Shown: positions 276 through 20,200 of the stretch, piece after piece
Position numbering within the stretch: the first letter of the stretch is position 1
Layout of the letters: every line of letters begins with the position of its first letter
Assembly: GCA_010356995.1 (NCBI GenBank)
Contig: ML996710.1
Location: forward strand, 314,333 to 334,532
From: Trichodelitschia bisporula
Lineage: Eukaryota > Ascomycota > Dothideomycetes > Phaeotrichales > Phaeotrichaceae
DNA: 20,200 nucleotides
Reading direction: 5' to 3'
Position numbers and translations under genes: made by a program
Notes under the pieces: generated by a model
Databases searched by the model: none
Told to the model about the DNA's origin: nothing
The model's input: only the letters and a program-made list of their open reading frames with translations

Positions 276-351
276 GTCGTAGACCGTGCTTAGAGCCAAC
301 CCGCCCGATTCCGCGAAAAAGGCGATTGGTTGGAAGGACGGGACTTACATC

Positions 352-492
352 TGTTGAATTTGTGGTGGCAACCTGGGGTGGCTGGAGTGGAGCCAGGAGA
401 CAGGGGTCGTCTCCCGGCGATGTATATAGTCAGCTCACTTCCCACTGCTAGTCAGTCAAGCAACTCAGACAAGTTCACACTTCATTTTAACA
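352..492 (+). mobile_element. Solo LTR, family LTR-B, copy 1
   Basis: This is a 141-bp element starting TGTTGAATTT and ending CATTTTAACA, flanked by the direct repeat ACATC (347-351 and 493-497). It contains a TATATAG box near 422-428, as expected for the promoter in the U3 part of an LTR. It is unrelated in sequence to LTR-A. A second copy of the same length, about 93% identical by eye, lies in the opposite orientation at 18642-18782. It is inserted in the eqolisin gene between the codons for GTYI and CLSWVG. Copia-like by its ends (inference). Confidence 0.82.
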
Positions 493-1084
493 ACATCTGC
501 CTTTCCTGGGTCGGGACTGATACCTGGGATAGCCCGGACGTGCTGCAGGCGGCAACTGGGTCCCGGTATATCGTTCCAGACGGCAATGTCATGCAGCAGG
601 AGACTTTGGGATGCTTTAAGTGGTTCCCGCTGAGCTGGATCGAATTCGGGGACTTCGAAGTGAAGCCCGGAGATACGGTGCGGTTTCTTGTTTGCGCGCT
701 CGGGACGACAGATGGGCTTGTTTCGCTGGGCAACCCGAGTACCGACACACACACCAGTACCAATCTCGTTTCGCCGGTGGGGACGACGCTCGTGGGCAAC
801 GTGGCGGCATTCATTATGGACGACCCGGACATGAACGGCGCGCCGTACCCGTTCCCCGACTATGGCACGAGCTTTTTCTCCGACTGCCTTGCGGGGACGA
901 ATAAGGCTTCGGAGAAGGACCTGAGCAGTGCGACGTTTATTGATCTGGAGCAGGGAGGGGTCACGTTGAGCACGGCGGTTCCGAACGGCAGTATTTCCAT
1001 GGTGTTTACTAGGAACAGCGGCTAGTGTGCTGCTGCGACTGTCTACTTTCTCACCTATCTGTAGCTAGGTTTCTGCGTCAAGAT

Positions 1085-10082: not shown

Positions 10083-10816
10083 ATGCGCGACCCGCACAAT
10101 GACGAAAGATACACGGTAACAGTCAACATTCTCAACTTTTTAAACCACTGACAAATTAGGAAATGGAAATCTTGCGGGCAACCTGCGAGCTTCATTTAGA
10201 TCTCCGCCACAGGGTCTATACCATTGGCGGACATGCCTGTCTCATGGCTGACGACTGGATCTCTCCCTTTCCGACCGATTACCCTCCCATCACCATCAAC
10301 GGCCGCACGCTCACCGACGAGAATCCGCTATGCATTCAGGGCGTGCTCTTCAAGACCTTGCACCTTGTCCTCGCGGACCAGTTCTTAAACTTTTGCCCCG
10401 CCTATTACTGGGAAGATTCCGATTCGCTTGATGTGAGGATGGGCCTCAAGCTACGCTGCGCAACCCTCCATGGCCCGGAGACGCCGAAGTTCCGGGCGGA
10501 TCTGCAGGCTGTGACTTTTCTCGCCTGCAAGCTCAGCGAACGAGGCGCAACTGTTCGCCCCCTGGCGGCGGGGCTTGTGCCCGTGAGTCCGTTCCAGATG
10601 CTTGTGGTTCGCCAACATCTCGCTGTATACCGTTGTCTGGAGATTTTCGATAAGGTGGGCGGCCGGCAGTTTGAGATTGAATGGGTCCCCGGCAGCGAGC
10701 AAGCTCGGCTGTACGAGGAGTTTCTCAATTATCTGCAGCCGGAGGTACGTCCCCAATTTGCTTCAGTGCGGGCGCCGGGACAGGGTAGTGAAGACATAAA
10801 AGCAGACTCTCAGTAG
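10083..10816 (+). CDS. Paralog A, family with nucleotidyltransferase-like N-terminus
   Basis: This has two exons: 10083-10115 and 10160-10816, with a 44-nt intron (GTAACA...CTGACAAATTAG). The product is about 229 aa. An in-frame stop lies four codons upstream of ATG 10083, which supports this start. The product aligns with paralog C along its length: RVYTIGGHACLMADDW with C's PFVVMGRTAAVLHGYTG; FQMLVVRQHLAVYRCLEIFD with HMVSAALWMMEHHVLDIFE; then VGGRQFE with VGSREFE. The intron sits at the equivalent site, 24-25 residues before the Gly motif in both. Hydrophobic strand + GGHA... + TDY recalls the GG(x)AxxLHG...TxDxD start of nucleotidyltransferase folds, but the second catalytic Asp is not evident, so activity is doubtful. 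The family is unnamed to me and the fold is inference. It is soluble, without a signal peptide. The C-terminal ~15 residues are unique to A. Confidence 0.68.
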
Positions 10817-11185
10817 CACTCCTGTAGGCCATTGAAGGCTCTTTACCTCTACGCAATGGAATGACACTTATATTTCCATAGTTCTTCCTGTAATGTGATG
10901 TGCCTTTTGCATCTTGCTAAGCGCTTCTCGATCACAAAGTGAGGAAGTTGTGATAACGTATGATTCTTGTTGTATGTGCTCGATAAAAAGGCCTGGATTC
11001 AGCTCTCTTTGTTGAAAAACGCCTGTCTGCAGCCGGCATGTCGGTCGGAACCGTGCCGATGGATCGACAGACGGCAAAGCTCACGACTGGGACCGATGAA
11101 ACTAGGGCCCGAAGGACATCCAGCACCGACATCCGCCGTGGGGATAAATATAGTCGATCCCCTTTCTCACCTCCTCGCATTCATC
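10817..11185. other. Intergenic between paralog A and a possible remnant
   Basis: This holds the 3' flank of paralog A and then a TATA-like stretch (GATAAATATAG at about 11141-11151) followed by a C/T-rich run. That layout resembles the promoter region of paralog B, but no intact gene follows. Confidence 0.4.
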
Positions 11186-11335
11186 CACGTCACCCTATAT
11201 TTGCTGCCCTTTGATTTGCAGCTAATGGCGCTCATACCACTATATTTGGATTCCACGCGCAAATGGCGCCGAGATGCGAAGAAGTCGGTAGAGCTACTCA
11301 GGCGGGCTCTAACTCCCCAGTCCCAGCCTTTTTAG
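11186..11335 (+). pseudogene. Possible remnant of the A/B/C family
   Basis: The open frame here reads LYLLPFDLQLMALIPLYLD and then WRRDAKKSVELLRRAL. This matches the central block of paralog C (FRVLPYDMLLALALGQG, then EHFTDVLFAAKQ) in the L-P-[FY]-D-[LM] motif and in the spacing of about 29 residues to the next helix. Paralog B has the related block VRFLVEPPDIFLTISL. The N- and C-terminal family blocks are absent. It lies between paralogs A and B on the same strand. The match is short and by eye. Confidence 0.32.
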
Positions 11336-11547
11336 CTTTTATATACACTGGTAGCGAGATGTCATGACCATCGATATGGCATGTCCACGTACTCTGGTAG
11401 CGAGATATTACTACTCCAGCTTTGGCACATTCACCTTGTGAATTTTCCTCAGGTTTAACAACTGAGTGGCAGAGAAGTTACCGCATCTTCCTCACCTCCA
11501 TTTATACAAGCTCAAAGTTCTCCCCATAAGCTCTCCGCAACTGGAAG

Positions 11548-11557
11548 TATATATAAA
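11548..11557 (+). promoter_or_regulatory. TATA box upstream of paralog B
   Basis: TATATATAAA lies 109-118 bp upstream of the ATG at 11666 and is followed by a C/T-rich leader. This is a standard arrangement for a fungal core promoter. It suggests paralog B was once a transcribed gene. Confidence 0.45.
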
Positions 11558-11665
11558 TCAGTCATTTTGTACTTGGGCCTCAGTATCCTTCTCGCAACAT
11601 TCTTCACCTCCACTTATCCAGCGCTTCTTCATACCGGCGTACCGCTGGTGAAACCTATTTCGAAG

Positions 11666-12330
11666 ATGGCGAGCTCCACTACTAGTGACACTGTCGCTGC
11701 AGTTGCTGCTTTGCGAAACGAAGACGCCCTGTGCAAATTTGGGGGCCATTGGACTCGTCGGAATTACAAATCCACGGCGAACCTCTTTCGACTTCAGCGA
11801 ATCCTCACCACCCTCCGACGAGCAGACAGCATCCTCCTTGGGCCTCCAAGGCACAGTTTGAGAACTTTATATCCGCACCCCCTGACTCCTTTTCACCGAC
11901 CTCCCGGGCGAACGACGGCACTATTTCAGTAGCGCCAAATTTGAACCTGGTTCGATTCCTGGTCGAACCGCCGGATATTTTCCTGACAATCAGCTTGACG
12001 AAATCCGTCCTTTACGATCCGGGTTCGCCGATGTACAACCGGTCGCTTCACCATGTGGTTCTCGCGGCGGAGCAGATTCATGCCTACAAGCGAGCCATTC
12101 GGCTTGAGATTCTGAGTAAAGTCCGCCTGGACTGCTTTCAGATGGTCCTGATAGTCCAGTGGATGAAGCATCGCGGAGCTCTAGAGCTTTTTGAAAAAGT
12201 AGGTGGTCGTCGATTTGAACAGCCGTGGGAGCAAAACACGGAATGAGACATTGAGGAGTATCAGCATCAGCTGGACTTTTTTACGCCCGATGAGTTCGTG
12301 CTCATGGGTTCTATGCGAGCGGCCAACTAG
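11666..12330 (+). pseudogene. Paralog B, broken copy of the A/C family
   Basis: The N-terminal part from ATG 11666 contains DTVAAVAALRNEDALCKFGG, which aligns with C's DTALSGLTAALEGTPFVVMG. The reading then moves to another frame (open from 11731), where VRFLVEPPDIFLTISL matches C's FRVLPYDMLLALAL. SLHHVVLAAEQ then matches HFTDVLFAAKQ, and ALELFEKVGGRRFEQPWEQN matches VLDIFESVGSREFEKAWKDN. A TGA at 12244-12246 falls where C has NTEEEMAEY; beyond it the frame continues DIEEYQHQLDFF...MGSMRAAN to 12330, matching C's tail. So there is one premature stop and one frame change (or an unrecognised intron near 11730-11830). B keeps the family's C-terminal signature better than A does. It has probably lost function unless the stop is read through or the truncated form is used. 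Confidence 0.65.
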
Positions 12331-12862
12331 TAGCACTCGACGGCAGGAGGGCTATGATCTATGTTAGTACACTTTCGGTTCCAAGGAAGATTTCTGACTT
12401 GGGGCAGCTTGATATAATGCTTCTGGCCCCCTGGCATCCAACGGCTCACAATAATTGTCGATATATACGACTCATGTAAGGCTTTCTATACTCTCCAAAA
12501 TATACTACCTTCTGGATGACGGATGGAATGCTGATGCGCCGCAGGCTGGTCTCGCAAAACACTGCCCCTTTTCAAAATCGAAGGGACTTCGACAGCTCAT
12601 ATCGGCCGGAGTTGAGATGGAAAGCCTACCGTCTCATCCGGGGTACGGTCAGTATGGCTTCGCCAGATCGGTTTGTCCTTGCCATAGAGCTTGGCCGCCC
12701 GGCCCGACGGATTGCACGAGAGTCCTCACCACTCATCTCATCAGCCACCAGAAGACAGCAAACCCCCGACCTATACAACGCCGAGGACAATGGTACACCC
12801 GCCTGTAATTTGTTCACGACTTGGCGCAAGGTCAGAGCACAGTCCAAGCCTGCGTCCCAGCT
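12331..12862. other. Intergenic between paralogs B and C
   Basis: Open frames here (up to 171 codons) run into the C/T-rich leader of paralog C, are low in complexity at their ends and share no motif with the family. I see no repeat or RNA gene. Confidence 0.45.
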
Positions 12863-13027
12863 GTTTAAATATCAACTCGCTGTCAAACTTTCCTCTCCCC
12901 AACTTTTCCTCCTCACTCTCTCCACCTTTCCCAAAGCAATCATCCTCCCACGCAACATTATCCGTTTGCGAAATTCCTCATTCCCTGTCCCACAAACACT
13001 CACGCTCTCCAAACATCAACATCCACC
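12863..13027 (+). promoter_or_regulatory. Putative promoter and leader of paralog C
   Basis: A TTTAAATA TATA-like element (about 12864) is followed by about 140 bp of strongly C/T-biased sequence on the coding strand and a good start context (CACC before ATG 13028). Such pyrimidine-rich leaders are typical of expressed genes in Pezizomycotina. No specific regulator site is recognised. Confidence 0.45.
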
Positions 13028-13848
13028 ATGAAGCAGATGCTCTCCCACCTCGCGCAAGCCGCCTTTGAATACCCCAAGCTGCGCGCCCAGCTCACCGATA
13101 CCTTCGGATCTCACGCCTCCAACAGCTACCAAAACTTCTCCATGCGCATCACCGCCATGAAGGCCGAGCGCGAGGTAAGTCAAATCTCCTCATTCCACGC
13201 AACAATCCCACTGACGCATCATAGCGCAAGGCGCGACTCGACACTGCCCTGTCCGGACTGACCGCCGCCCTCGAAGGCACTCCCTTCGTTGTCATGGGGC
13301 GCACCGCGGCTGTCCTCCATGGCTATACTGGCGAAATGTGGGAGATAACCTTCATGTGCCGCCGTGGCCAGAAGATTCCGAAGGAGCTTGAAGGATGGAA
13401 GGTCCGCGCAATGCGGGTCAGCGATGAACACCTGGAGGAGGTTGTCAAGCTGTCCAAGACGCGCCGCAACTTCCGCGTTCTGCCATACGACATGCTTCTC
13501 GCGCTCGCGCTTGGTCAGGGCGCCGCCTGGGGTCACCCTTCCATGGCTTCGGAGCACTTCACTGACGTGCTCTTTGCCGCCAAGCAGATGCGCAAGAAAT
13601 GCAAGGTCGTATCTCCTGCTGCCCTGACGTACTGCAAGCTCTCTGCGGCCCACATGGTCAGTGCTGCTCTGTGGATGATGGAGCACCACGTTCTCGACAT
13701 CTTTGAGTCCGTCGGCTCCCGCGAGTTTGAGAAGGCTTGGAAGGACAACACCGAGGAGGAAATGGCCGAGTACCAGGAGATCATCGACGAGTTCACCATG
13801 GCGGACATTCGGGCGATGGGGTCCCACCGCGGGCCCGTCATCTGGTAG
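13028..13848 (+). CDS. Paralog C, intact family member with nucleotidyltransferase-like N-terminus
   Basis: This has two exons, 13028-13174 and 13225-13848, around a 50-nt phase-0 intron (GTAAGT...CTGAC...CATAG). The product is 256 aa. Residues 1-49 form a basic, helical leader. Around 50-90 comes LDTALSGLTAALEG, then TPFVVMGRTAAVLHGYTGEM. This resembles the helix-strand-G(G)-x-A-x-x-LHG opening of nucleotidyltransferase folds of the MNT/AbiEii type, although the expected DxD acids would be replaced by E-x-x-E at best. Residues ~140-185 carry VLPYDMLLALALGQG and HFTDVLFAAKQM, reminiscent of the later helices of that fold. The C-terminal signature is HHVLDIFESVGSREFEKAW followed by an acidic NTEEEMAEYQEIIDEF. 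Paralogs A and B share these blocks. There is no signal peptide or membrane helix. It is the only copy with a strong promoter, good start context and no lesions. The function is unknown; the fold is my inference. Confidence 0.8.
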
Positions 13849-14399
13849 ATGCGCTTGGTCCACGACTTGGTTTCGGTCGGCACTTGTCTCTGGGACTTTT
13901 ACGCTCCTAGGGCGGCTGTCGGCGTCGTCTGGGCGGGATGGATTTTCGGATAAACTTTAGGCGCGTTCGTCTTGAATCTTGAGCGATGTACTTAGCTGAT
14001 TCAATGCAATTTCATGCTTTCATTATTGAACGCGGTGATAAACAGAATGGCGATTGTGATTCTTTAGGCATACGAAAAGAATTCTATGGCAGTCACTTCC
14101 TCTCGTCTGAACCTCGATGGGATCCTTCACCGTCGTCGCCAGCGAACTTAACGGATCATCAACCCCCCGAAACACGTGATCGTGCAACGTTGAAGCACCG
14201 ACGAGGGACCATTACCCGTGAATCACTTTTCCCCACAACTCCTTTTTCTCACCCACCCCTTCTCATGACCAGCTTAATCTCCCCACCACCACCTCCTCCT
14301 CACCAACTCAATTTCCACTCAACCATACATGCAGGCTCCATGCGGTCAGCCGTTATATAACGCCCATATCCACAGGTTTTTTTTTAGAACATCCGAATT
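13849..14399. other. Intergenic downstream of paralog C
   Basis: This contains the 3' flank of paralog C, then a C/T-rich stretch (about 14220-14330) that looks like a promoter or leader on the plus strand but is not followed by a recognisable gene, and a run of nine T at 14378-14386. Nothing else was recognised. Confidence 0.4.
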
Positions 14400-14756
14400 G
14401 CCGTCGATCGGTACAAGAATCGGCGTGCCCCTGCTTGAGGCAAAGTCAACACGGAGCGCGATGTAGCCCAGATTCGGCTTATTATCTTGACCGACCCGCA
14501 CTACCTCATTGACCCGCGGGCTTCAACCCTCCAACAATACGCATCGACCTTCTCTTGTCTTCAACGAAGACCCGACCTGCTGTCAATCGGTACAAGAGCA
14601 GGCGCGCCCCTGTGTGAGGCAGAGTCAACGCGAAGCTCGACGTAGCCCAGACTTGGCTTATCATCCTGACCGGCTCGCACTACCTCAGTGATCCACGGGG
14701 CCTCACCCCGCCAACAACACGCATCGTCATTTCATCTGTTCATCTCCATTTTATCT
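14400..14756. repeat. Diverged 179-bp tandem duplication
   Basis: Two direct copies (14400-14578 and 14579-14756) align over their length. CGGTACAAGA occurs at 14409 and 14588, and CCAACAA(T/C)ACGCATCG at 14531 and 14711. Identity is roughly 80% by eye, and about four in five differences are transitions. No open frame spans both copies convincingly and no terminal structure or target duplication is visible, so the origin is unclear. Confidence 0.7.
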
Positions 14757-14762
14757 TCACGA

Positions 14763-15146
14763 ATGGGATTGTTCCGCCATCGTAATCTAGCCGCAGTCAA
14801 AGACTACGAGCTCCCCATCACAACATCTACCTCCACCAAACAAATCATCAGCAATGCCAACATGACCACTGACAAAAAGACGGACGAACTCATCAACAAG
14901 GAAACGGCTGACAGCAACGTGCGCTATGCCCTGGATTTGGGGGCTGGCTCCCCCCCCAAAACCGACAACTCCGAGACGACTGATCAAACTGTCGGCATAC
15001 CCGATGTCGTGTTACCCAGAAAGGCAGGCTTGGCACGGCGAACACCGAAGTGGCGAAGATGGACGACGCCGGAAGTCCGATGGACGACGCCGGAAGTCCG
15101 ATGGACGACGCCGGAAGTCCGATGGACGACGCCGGAAGTCCGATGA
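14763..15146 (+). CDS. Orphan small ORF ending in 7-residue repeats
   Basis: From ATG 14763 (MGLFRHRNLAAVKDY) the frame gives about 127 aa; an in-frame ATG at 14688 lies inside the second tandem copy and is less likely. The middle part is Thr/Ser/Asp-rich (TTDKKTDELINKETADSN) and the end is four copies of a 7-residue unit, WTTPEVR, encoded by the minisatellite. The other two frames of the minisatellite are also open; one reads MDDAGSP and continues as MKFRNILETHHGYILFIL to a stop near 15199, so the real frame may change or involve splicing. No family is recognised. Confidence 0.3.
   Translation: MGLFRHRNLAAVKDYELPITTSTSTKQIISNANMTTDKKTDELINKETADSNVRYALDLGAGSPPKTDNSETTDQTVGIPDVVLPRKAGLARRTPKWRRWTTPEVRWTTPEVRWTTPEVRWTTPEVR
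15058..15141. repeat. 21-bp minisatellite, four perfect copies
   Basis: Four identical head-to-tail units of GATGGACGACGCCGGAAGTCC are followed by a partial GATG. The unit is a multiple of three and has no stop in any plus-strand frame, so changes in copy number would keep the frame. Perfect identity indicates recent expansion. Confidence 0.95.
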
Positions 15147-16496: not shown

Positions 16497-16699
16497 CCCT
16501 AACCCTATGTTGGAAAGCGGTGGCTGTGTTCAGCCTTACCCAGGTTCAGCCACAGAGCTCGAGTACAAGTAGACTCGAGGTCCCCATCTCTTTGACAATT
16601 AAAAAGCAACTTATTCATGGACAGACCTTTGGTCCAACTTATGATGCTGTGAGGTCTTCATTGATCACTCATCCCCTTTCAGCACCCTAACCTTAACCC
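16497..16699. repeat. Interstitial telomeric repeat split by LTR-A
   Basis: CCCTAACCCTA (16497-16507) lies directly left of the LTR and CCCTAACCTTAACCC (16685-16699) directly right. Allowing for the 5-bp duplication CCCTA, the original tract was 21 bp, about three and a half units of the fungal telomere repeat CCCTAA with one variant unit. In this orientation the C-rich strand reads as at a left chromosome end, so the DNA to the right is what would have been capped. Confidence 0.75.
16508..16684 (+). mobile_element. Solo LTR, family LTR-A, copy 2
   Basis: This is a 177-bp element in the same orientation as copy 1, with TG...CA ends (TGTTGGAAAG, TTTCAGCA) and a perfect CCCTA target duplication (16503-16507 and 16685-16689). 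It landed inside the telomeric repeat. No internal region remains. Confidence 0.85.
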
Positions 16700-17172: not shown

Positions 17173-17508
17173 TCAGTCAGAATCCAGTCCATCCGCCGGA
17201 TCCGCGTACTCCGTATCCTTGTGCGCTTCAGCAGTCTCAAACGACAACTCGTCGCCCAGCGGTCCTGTCCACGGGCGCACAGCCTCCGGTTCCGAAACCG
17301 CCTCCATCTCCATTCCCCCAGGGCAGTGGTGGGTCTGAACGCTGCTGCCGCAGGCCGTGCATATGCCGCGGAAGCAATAAGGGTAGATGCGGTATTCCGT
17401 TACCCGGTAGAGCGCTCCGCAGGTCTCCGTCGGGCAGTGGTGAAAAAAGTCTCGGCAGGTGGCAAGATAGGCGTCGGTAGCGGGACGCAGCATCATAAGT
17501 TGGACCAA
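17173..17508 (-). pseudogene. Cys-rich gene tail fused to a partial LTR-A
   Basis: The frame runs 111 aa from ATG 17508 to a stop at 17173. The first seven residues (MVQLMML) come from the LTR-A fragment. The rest is host-like: CRDFFHHC-PTETC, then YPYCFRGICTACG and THHC, with Cys spacing C-x6-C-x4-C-x14-C-x4-C-x2-C-x8-C that suggests metal binding, then an acidic tail ending in DGLDSD. I do not recognise the family. Because the host part begins abruptly at the LTR edge, the original N-terminus is missing, so this is a 3' gene fragment. It could be a short chimeric gene if the LTR drives transcription (inference). Confidence 0.45.
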
Positions 17509-17626
17509 AGGTCAGTCCATGAACTAGTTGCTTGATTGTCAAATAGGTGGGGATCCCGAGTCTACTTATACTCGAGCCCCGTGGCTGAAACTGGGCAAGG
17601 CTGAACACAGCCACCGCTTTCCAACA
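17488..17626 (-). mobile_element. Partial LTR-A, copy 3, reverse orientation
   Basis: About 139 bp match LTR-A in the opposite orientation to the other copies, starting from the TGTTGG end at 17626. The copy is incomplete and has no target duplication; its edge abuts the Cys-rich gene fragment, which suggests it marks a rearrangement breakpoint rather than a simple insertion site. Confidence 0.85.
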
Positions 17627-17832
17627 GACACATAGTGGGGGTTGTAGACGGGCTGGATAGCAGATGGTCAGAGGTAAAGACGAGACGAATCGTTGTCTGT
17701 CAAGGATCAACGATCGTAGCCATATGTATTGATAGAGTGGGGTCCAAGGCCGAGTCGGGGGTGAGCCTACGGCTCAGCCCAACGCACAGCCTAAGGCAGG
17801 ATCTGAAGCTCCCAGGGAGGTTAAGACAAAAT

Positions 17833-18496
17833 TCAGCAAGTGAATTCCATACACAGCACTCGACCAGATGAATACCCCAATGCAATCTTACCCCCGTGAA
17901 CGGCGAGGACGCTCGGACTGCGATACTCGACTGGAAGCCAAAGAAGCTTTTTCGCGCTTATGGTTACCCATTGCCGCACGACAATTATAGGGCGCGGAGG
18001 ATTCGAGCCTGAACCTGGCAGCTGCTTGCTGTCAGGCGAGAAGACCACGGCCATGACCCAATCCAATGGCCCTCGAGCGTCTGCAGCGCCTTTCCCGAGC
18101 CGGCGTCCCACAGCCTGACCGTCTCGTCCCACGATGCCGACGCCAGCTGCTTGCCGTCCGGCGAGAAGGCCACGGCCCTGACCGCTTCCGAATGGCCCTC
18201 GAGCGTCTGCAGCGCCTTTCCCGAGCCGGCGTCCCACAGCCTGACCGTCTCCACGTCCGATGCCGACACCAGCTGCTTGCCGTCCGGCGAGAAGGCCACG
18301 GCCCTGACCCACTGCGAATGGCCCTCGAACGTCCGCAGCGCCGCTCCCGAGCCGGCGCCCCACAGCCTGACCGTCTTGTCGCCCGATGCCGACGCCAGCT
18401 GCTTGCCGTCCGGCGAGAAGGCCACGGCCTCGACATAATCCGAATGGCCCTTGAGCGTCTGCGGCGCCTTTCCCGAGCCGGCGTCCCAGGCTATGA
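17833..18496 (-). pseudogene. C-terminal WD40 fragment of a NACHT/STAND-type protein
   Basis: Three complete and two partial WD40 repeats of 42 aa each show the fungal consensus AVAFSPDGKQLASAS...TVRLWDAGSGKALQTLEGH. Units repeat every 126 bp (starts at 18065, 18191, 18317 and 18443 on the plus strand) and are nearly identical in DNA. After the last repeat comes the closing strand typical of these receptors (WVTISAKKLLWLPVEYRSPS...GYSSGRVLCMEF), ending at 17833. One base is missing relative to the repeat pattern near 18050, so the final part is out of frame with the rest. The N-terminal effector and NACHT domains are absent. In the family, WD40 repeats of NACHT proteins such as HET-E/HET-D recognise non-self partners and evolve quickly by repeat exchange. 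This copy is a dead 3' fragment. Confidence 0.8.
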
Positions 18497-18539
18497 GACG
18501 CCAGGTCGGGAAAGGCGCTGCAGACGCTCAAGGGCCATT
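18443..18539. repeat. Palindrome formed by inverted WD40 units
   Basis: The arms 18443-18485 and 18497-18539 (43 nt each, 3 mismatches by my count) are inverted around an 11-nt centre. Both arms encode the same WD40 segment (SGKA...QTLKGH) on opposite strands. Confidence 0.85.
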
Positions 18540-18568
18540 CAGAAGCGGTCTGGGCCGTTAAGTGGTAG
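18497..18568 (+). pseudogene. Inverted WD40 remnant
   Basis: On the plus strand 18506-18568 reads SGKALQTLKGHSEAVWAVKW and then a stop. This is part of a WD40 repeat like those on the minus strand next to it, but facing the other way. It ends abruptly in unrelated sequence. Confidence 0.65.
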
Positions 18569-18630
18569 GGGATATGCTGCTAGGAAGTAGGATATGTGCC
18601 GCTAAATTGTAGGGGGGCATGCCGCTAGGT
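18561..18630. repeat. Three degenerate ~22-25-bp repeats
   Basis: The pattern GTAGG(n)ATATG(n)GCCGCTA recurs about three times between the WD40 remnant and LTR-B. Units differ by small gaps. It is not similar to either LTR. Confidence 0.4.
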
Positions 18631-18641
18631 GCCACGGTATG

Positions 18642-18782
18642 TGTTAAAATGAAGTGTGAACTTGACTGAGTTGCTTGATCGACTAGCAGTGGGAAGTGAG
18701 CTGACTATATACCTCGCCTGGAGACAACCCCCGTCTCTTGGCTCCACTCCAGCCACCCCAGGTTGCCGCCACAAATTCAGCA
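18642..18782 (-). mobile_element. Solo LTR, family LTR-B, copy 2, without target duplication
   Basis: This is 141 bp, the same length as copy 1 and about 93% identical by eye, in reverse orientation, with both ends present. The flanking 5-mers (GTATG on the left, CGCAG on the right) do not match. It therefore sits at a junction between unlike DNA: WD40-side debris on one side and the SCC2 fragment, cut off in LLLR, on the other. Confidence 0.82.
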
Positions 18783-20200
18783 CGCAGCAACAGCTCCGCG
18801 GCGGGCCAGTCGGGCGACCCGAGCACGTTGATCAAGTCCTCGATGAAGATGTCGAGCAGGCTGTGGTACGGCTGGTCGTCGGACTTGGTCGACGCGAGCG
18901 CGCGCTGCACGAGGTAGCGAATCACGTAGGAGGCGTTTTTCAGGGCACTGTCGTACGTGCGCGTTCTCAACGAAGAGCAGGTGCATCGCGAGGAACTCCA
19001 TCTTGGTGACCGCGCTCTCCGCGACGTTGACCTTGGATACGAGCATCTCGAGAAGGTGGAACACGGGCCCGCACATGTGCAGCAGCGCGGTCAGCGGTTT
19101 CTTCTGGGAGGCGAAGATTTTGAACGCGTCGGCGCTCATGCGCGCCTCGACGACCGGCACGACGCTGTCGACGACGTGCTCCTGTGCGCGCATCACCCTG
19201 CCGAGCACCACCTCCGAGTACAGCTGCTTCTCCTCGCGGCCGGCGGTCAGCACGCGCCGCAGAATCTTTGCCACGTGGAGCCCCTTCTCCGCGTGATGCA
19301 GCCGGACGGCCCAGTCCGCGACGTCGTCGTCCACGACCAGGTTGATGCACTCGACCGAGGACACCGTATTGTCGCACAGCTTCTGCAGCCGCATCACGCT
19401 GTCGACAGCAACCCGGGAACACGATCCGGTGGCGACGGCGGTGCGGACCGCGTTTTCGATGCGTACTGTTGGAAAGCGGTGGCTGTGTTCAGCCTTACCC
19501 AGTTTCAGCCACAGGGCTCGAGTATAAGTAGACTCGGGATCCCCACCTCTTTGACAATCAAGCAACTTGTGCATGGACAGACCTTTGGTCCAACTTATGA
19601 TGCTGTGATGTTTCCATTGATCACACATCCCCTCTTAACACGTACCTGCAGCGCCTCGGCGAGCATCGGCGGGCCGCCCTCGTCGCCCGGGCCCTGGATG
19701 AAGTACGCGGGGTCGTCGCGCTCCGCGGCGTCGGCCTTTTCGCGCTGGTTGATGCTCAGCTCCAGCACGTCGTGGCGTGGGCGTTTGCACGCCTCTTCCA
19801 CCACCCGCGCGTCGACGTCGGGGAATTCCTGGTACTCATCGCGGCCATGCTGACGCGGATCGTGGAGTTGTCCCCGGCGGCGGCGGCATTGAGCGTACGG
19901 GTCTGCATTTGCTTTGGGGCTTGACATGTATTGTTGGCTCATCGTCTGACTGGACGGGTGGCTGGGCGGTCTGGTGAACAGTGGGCTGGACATTTTGGAC
20001 CACAGTTAGCTGGACCTGGGTATCTTGAACCTGAACGGCTGGCCCGATCTGAACGGTTGGCTGAACCACGGGGGGCTGGACCGTGACTGCTGGCCGAACC
20101 TGAGCAGGCTGGACCGAACGGTTGGCCGAGCCTGAACAGGCTGCTGGACCTGGATGACAGGCCGGACCGGTTTCCGAGCCGTCACTTGGATGCTGCCTAG
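18783..20200 (-). pseudogene. scc2: Cohesin loader SCC2/Mis4 fragment, interrupted and rearranged
   Basis: Scc2 (Mis4, NIPBL) loads cohesin onto chromosomes and is a HEAT-repeat protein of well over 1,500 residues. The blocks seen on the minus strand are DPRQHGRDEYQEFP, CKRPRHDVLELSINQR, LTAGREEKQLYSEVVL, VVPVVEARMSADAFKIFASQ, KVNVAESAVTKMEFLAMHLL (then FVENA) and finally LLDIFIEDLINVLGSPDWPA followed by AELLLR. The order matches the N-terminal third as I remember it from fungal orthologs. Upstream (about 19990-20200) is a Q/P/V-rich repeat region that changes frame at least twice. An LTR-A is inserted at 19467-19640. Between FVENA and the YDSALKNASY block (near 18965) the frame changes and roughly 100 residues seem to be missing. 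The gene stops at LTR-B. It cannot make a working loader, so an intact copy must exist elsewhere. The identification is strong; the size of the gap is from memory. Confidence 0.75.
19467..19640 (+). mobile_element. Solo LTR, family LTR-A, copy 4
   Basis: This is a 174-bp element with TG...CA ends and a perfect CGTAC target duplication (19462-19466 and 19641-19645), inserted antisense into the SCC2 fragment. The host reading is continuous across the site if the element and one duplication are set aside (LAEALQVR, then IENAVRT), so the insertion hit an exon. It is about 93-94% identical to copy 1 by eye. Confidence 0.88.

Follow-up and report, generated by a model that had tools for sequence, protein, structure and literature searches.

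Do three neighbouring plus-strand loci in the genome of the fungus Trichodelitschia bisporula, here termed A, B and C, represent a single gene family, and if so, what kind of protein would such a family encode? The stretch analysed (hereafter the window) comprises 20.2 kilobases (kb; 20,200 nucleotides), and all three loci were found on its plus strand within 3.8 kb, in close accord with the 4 kb given in an earlier note on this DNA. Judged from their sequences, A, B and C are a paralogous tandem family whose members are homologous beyond chance, a conclusion that is carried by their C-terminal parts. The features assigned to the three loci were as follows.

10083-10115, plus strand: proposed exon 1 of A, inferred only; 11 codons, phase 0 junction, donor GTAACA
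10116-10159, plus strand: proposed intron of A, 44 nucleotides; CTGAC branch-like site, TTAG acceptor
10160-10816, plus strand: exon 2 of A with the conserved C-terminal region, including the stop; open frame of 218 residues
11689-12246, plus strand: remnant frame of B, closed by an in-frame TGA; resembles the family from about 11905 onwards, where its local alignment to C starts
12247-12330, plus strand: B homology past the stop, in the same frame and ending in TAG; 27 codons aligned to the tail of C
13028-13174, plus strand: exon 1 of C; 49 codons
13175-13224, plus strand: predicted intron of C, 50 nucleotides; GTAAGT donor, CTGAC branch-like site, ATAG acceptor
13225-13848, plus strand: exon 2 of C with the G-R-T-A turn and the conserved C-terminal region, including the stop; open frame of 207 residues

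The shared C-terminal region and the state of each copy

The signature L[DE]xF[DE]xVG[GS]RxFExxW fitted all three loci, namely as LEIFDKVGGRQFEIEW in A, LELFEKVGGRRFEQPW in B and LDIFESVGSREFEKAW in C. The conserved C-terminal region, approximately 65 to 95 residues in length, was predicted to be helical, and AlphaFold models of A and C displayed helices throughout it, with predicted local distance difference test (pLDDT) values of about 75-87 in the best blocks. When the C-terminal parts were compared in pairs, z values of 14.3 (A-C), 18.9 (B-C) and 13.7 (A-B) were obtained, and none of 2000 shuffles reached the score in any pair. Local alignments of the whole proteins gave z values of 10.9 (A-C), 32.5 (B-C) and 19.2 (A-B), with 0 of 1000 shuffles as high.

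At the nucleotide level, meanwhile, no similarity was detected between the A, B and C units (best E-value 0.64), and therefore the duplication would be old; a recent tandem duplication was rejected on the same ground. A profile of the three, which they match by construction, retrieved only A, B and C from the window, the next segment having an E-value of 4.6. In the aligned codons, positions 1 and 2 were far above the shuffled null for all three pairs (reached by 0 or 1 of 500 shuffles), an excess that is in part built in, since the codons were aligned through their proteins, and position 3 of the B-C pair stood at the null (0.28 vs 0.28). This pattern of change between B and C points to selection on the protein.

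Codon scores, expressed in bits per codon, were based on a training set of three Pfam-matched window genes, which themselves scored 0.29-0.37. Locus C (13028-13848) was read without interruption as a protein of 256 residues from two exons. Its exon 2 scored 0.34, the best of the six frames (next 0.05) and similar to the training genes, and its exon 1 scored 0.31, with the other forward frames at -0.52 and -0.50. With this uninterrupted reading and ordinary codon usage, C is predicted to be a working gene. Locus A (10083-10816) would encode 229 residues if its two-exon reading holds; its exon 2 displayed a lower score than C (0.14), which was nevertheless the best of the six frames (next 0.06). 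A is probably a working two-exon gene of this length.

In locus B (about 11689-12330), by comparison of its frame with that of C, an in-frame TGA at 12244-12246 was found inside still recognizable homology, which runs on in frame to 12327. The codon score of B was -0.05 over the whole frame, which is not coding-like, and a weak 0.12 over its core. B is, on this reading of its frame, a decaying copy. Repeat-induced point mutation was rejected as the cause of the decay, the composite index being negative in all 21 window blocks. The description in the earlier note of C as intact, A as probably intact and B as broken, all three bearing the C-terminal signature, was supported, as was its view that A and C are true paralogs despite strong divergence, homologous at the C-terminus and unlike in their first halves.

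The first halves and the intron of A and C

The N-terminal halves were not alike beyond chance, shuffled sequences scoring as high in 979 of 2000 trials for A-C, 163 of 2000 for B-C and 387 of 2000 for A-B, and the first halves have, by this measure, diverged beyond recognition. The global alignment of full A with C, with free ends, gave a z value of 4.0 (4 of 1000 shuffles as high). The N-terminal part of B was unlike that of A or C; that it might lie in another frame was considered and rejected, since in three frames across about 11500-11960, compared with A and C, the best case was equalled by 52 of 500 shuffles.

The earlier note had described ordered blocks running through all three proteins. 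This was upheld for the C-terminal signature but not for the N-terminal blocks: by eye, G(G/R)xA was seen in A (GGHA) and C (GRTA) and was missing in B, and LP[YF]D was seen in C only, with EPPD in B and no counterpart in A. One A-C alignment sets IGGHA of A opposite MGRTA of C, and further alignments of these sequences position them otherwise; because the likeness of the first halves does not exceed chance, this correspondence is only plausible.

A and C likely share an intron. Their putative acceptors (10159 and 13224) are both in phase 0 and are both associated with a CTGAC branch-like site and TAG. According to a simple acceptor rule (CTRAY, 2-15 nucleotides, then YAG, with GTA 40-95 nucleotides before the end), nine plus-strand sites in the 20.2 kb qualified, these two among them, and the chance of a qualifying site within five given in-phase positions was about 0.002. 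The distance from the acceptor to the conserved C-terminal region is 114 codons in A and 111 codons in C, and as these distances require no alignment of the first halves, they are the strongest argument for a single ancestor of the first halves. The proposed exon 1 of A (11 codons) looks unlike exon 1 of C (49 codons), and their common ancestry is not proved. The intron shared by A and C that the earlier note had put forward is hence plausible in its phase, signals and similar distance, but with no intron at all the exon-2 frame of A would be opened by an ATG at 10163, which offers an alternative start.

The nucleotidyltransferase question

The proposal in the earlier note that these proteins carry a nucleotidyltransferase-like core was unsupported by family libraries, PDB sequences, fold search, profile comparison and motifs alike, in tests that are weak, with three sequences only and models at pLDDT 55-62. 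A, B and C had no match to any nucleotidyltransferase family of Pfam, NCBIfam or PADLOC at E-values up to 10, in searches whose filters drop most weak matches, and no model tried from these libraries recognized the family at its cut-off. Searches of PDB sequences gave nothing credible (best E-value 0.39 with C alone and 0.52 with the profile). AlphaFold, run on the three-sequence alignment, gave mean pLDDT values of 61.8 for C and 54.9 for A, with a predicted template modelling score (pTM) of 0.52 each. When these low-confidence models were compared with the PDB by Foldseek, no match with an E-value of 0.001 or below was obtained, and no nucleotidyltransferase appeared by name among the matches listed (50 of 284 for C and 50 of 121 for A). 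Likewise, the C model had no match with an E-value of 0.001 or below in a viral fold library.

When hhalign was run against a profile built from eight AbiEii proteins, the three-sequence profile reached 0.11% in local and 0.05% in global mode, C 0.08% and 0.19%, and A 0.44% and 0.09%. The three-sequence profile scored 13.0, and at least 10 of 30 column-shuffled profiles scored higher, the ten best ranging from 18.55 to 14.19. Taken alone, A scored 17.14, which two column-shuffled profiles exceeded and one equalled, and C scored 11.80. As controls, all eight of eight left-out AbiEii proteins were recovered at 99.47-100%; since these are close relatives, the controls demonstrate a working method and give no assurance that a remote relative would be reached.

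The AbiEii motifs I-IV were taken as they appear in the published account (PMC3985639), where the pair I-II reads hG[G/S]x9-15DhD. This pair was absent from A, B and C, and a looser form of the pattern matched once, in B, within the C-terminal signature and outside the first half. Motif III (KLxAxxxR type) was not seen in its place: KLxA occurs in C only, at residues 17 and 187, not just behind the core, and in A only the KL of the motif is present, at 108 and 135. Motif IV, [KR]DxxD, was absent from all three, a looser KDNTE being present in C at 222, behind the signature.

These results bear on the idea that the first half is a degenerate pol-beta/MNT/AbiEii nucleotidyltransferase fold, in which the metal-binding DxD would have been lost and the protein would be a pseudoenzyme. 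The C model does present helix 2-15, strand 21-24, the G-R turn, helix 26-30, strand 38-42 and strand 59-64, an order of elements that fits the pol-beta/MNT/AbiEii fold. Furthermore, 13 residues were counted by eye from G-R to E-I-T in C, at the expected place of DhD and inside the spacing of 9-15 in the same account (PMC3985639), and hhalign, without significance, sets VMGRTAAV of C opposite AbiEii motif I. However, the stretch of C concerned was modelled with block pLDDT values of 43-61 and residues 1-87 of A with values below 50, no profile, sequence or fold match accompanies the idea, the profile score lay under at least 10 of the 30 column shuffles (14.19 or more), and none of the three proteins has strict motif II or IV, KLxA being confined to C. 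We consider this origin unlikely. In comparison with AbiEii/DUF1814 (PF08843), A (IGGHA) and C (MGRTA) share a glycine turn behind a hydrophobic strand, whereas the present family is fungal and intron-bearing, with no DhD, strict motif IV, or profile or fold match. A more elaborate scheme, in which a dead nucleotidyltransferase-derived first half turned into a fast-diversifying recognition module coupled to a new helical VG[GS]RxFE domain, with birth and death in local clusters, is quite improbable.

Probable nature of the family and its neighbourhood

Relatives were sought in collections of prokaryotes and viruses, which have little bearing on fungi, and the contig scans see only places with a common short peptide pattern. 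With exon 2 of C, 600 pattern stretches in viral contigs and 20 in genome contigs were examined and none was confirmed, nor was any match found in plasmids or phages; exon 2 of A had no match in plasmids. The A-B-C alignments led to 107 stretches in genome contigs and 58 in viral contigs, again with none confirmed. No such family was described in the titles and abstract openings surveyed, which carries no claim of absence from print.

Two named families were tried and rejected. Peptidase M17 (PF00883), the cytosol aminopeptidase family, resembled the C-terminal half of C in a single sub-threshold Pfam match (E-value 0.0084; 15.9 bits against a cut-off of 25) but had no match to A or B among the eight proteins of that scan, and the M17 metal-site motif was not seen by eye, with no separate test made. 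A match to DUF5106 was also below the Pfam cut-off.

The family is probably an uncharacterized, fast-diverging one of an ordinary kind, and no named family is claimed for it. The reading that we tentatively prefer, giving it somewhat less than an even chance, is that of a small, old, locally duplicated, intron-bearing fungal family, whose proteins would probably be intracellular and may act by binding and not by catalysis. An intracellular location is suggested by the lack of a secretion signal by eye, and non-catalytic action by the absence of a recognized enzyme family. The constant helical part may bind a partner common to the copies or else self-associate, the variable first half could give each copy its own contact surface, and copies would be born by local duplication and then die, as B appears to be doing.

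Several observations speak against this reading. One reverse frame across exon 1 of C outscores the gene frame (0.40 vs 0.31), and another ties with it in the core of B at 0.12. The third codon positions are above the null in the A-C pair (0.42 vs 0.29; 2 of 500 shuffles) and slightly so in the A-B pair (0.35 vs 0.28; 33 of 500 shuffles), and hence do not provide a clean mark of amino-acid constraint. In addition, three sequences leave room for an active site of a new type.

It is also conceivable, if somewhat unlikely, that the three copies belong to an ordinary family whose members, already annotated as hypothetical proteins across many fungi related to this one, serve housekeeping or metabolism. 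The absence of any sign of repeat-induced mutation, the short introns with common signals and the ordinary codon usage of C agree with this, but there is no Pfam match at the cut-off, and strong divergence together with a broken copy would be less usual for housekeeping genes. The C-terminal signature is specific enough for this fungal family to be traced by it. Should surveys of fungal genomes reveal, from strain to strain, C-termini that are kept and first halves that change rapidly, the family would become a candidate for a role in recognition or conflict; on present evidence it is a further small fungal gene family, uncharacterized.

The Pfam scan covered 17 of the 72 open reading frames (ORFs) of at least 100 residues in the window, and the following matches were obtained.

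294-1025, plus strand: peptidase A4
3547-1085, minus strand: DUF6604, uninterrupted, 820 residues, E-value 7.7e-16
5604-4609, minus strand: fungal rhodopsin
18527-17985, minus strand: WD40 repeats

Between about 7.3 and 17.5 kb, no ORF among those scanned there was above the Pfam cut-off. Neither transfer RNA genes (ARAGORN) nor Rfam matches at the gathering score were found in the window, and our literature search retrieved no paper pairing the term DUF6604 with 'fungal'.

The WD40 array (17985-18590, minus strand) consists of approximately 3.7 units of 126 nucleotides (42 codons) that are about 85-91% alike in DNA, and is perhaps a fragment of an NLR-type gene; WD repeats of high mutual similarity are a described feature of fungal NLRs (PMC4986451, PMC2873952). 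This array, taken with the strongly diverged first halves of A, B and C, could place the family in a non-self recognition neighbourhood, as a fast-evolving recognition or signalling partner. We regard this as highly improbable, because the array is separated from the family by over 4 kb, lies on the opposite strand and has nothing linking it to the three loci, and because none of the 17 scanned ORFs yielded a nucleotide-binding domain. While a fragment with such alike 42-codon units in the same window recalls fungal WD-repeat NLR genes of the HNWD type, it is a neighbour of the family and no relative of it: neither a WD nor a nucleotide-binding domain was matched by A, B or C.

The window also contains a dispersed repeat of about 140-175 base pairs (bp) in four copies (102-275, 16508-16684, 17488-17627 in inverted orientation, and 19467-19640), 88-96% alike by blastn, which is possibly a mobile-element remnant or a segmental duplication. 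Within the peptidase A4 ORF, 141 bp (352-492) recur inverted at 18642-18782 with 93% likeness. A gene fragment at 18777-19634 on the minus strand matches the PDB chain 5t8v_A (E-value 5.7e-18; residues 45-228), the Chaetomium cohesin loader Scc2. A possible continuation was noticed by eye in another frame at 18683-19090. The rearranged chromosome region of the earlier note fits such repeats and gene fragments near the window ends, but nothing links them to the A-B-C family. Downstream of C, two adjacent segments (14387-14546 and 14566-14726) form a direct duplication of about 161 bp with 81% likeness, and a perfect 21-bp tandem repeat of 4.2 copies is located at 15058-15145, one open frame of which gives a repeated RWTTPEV heptapeptide.

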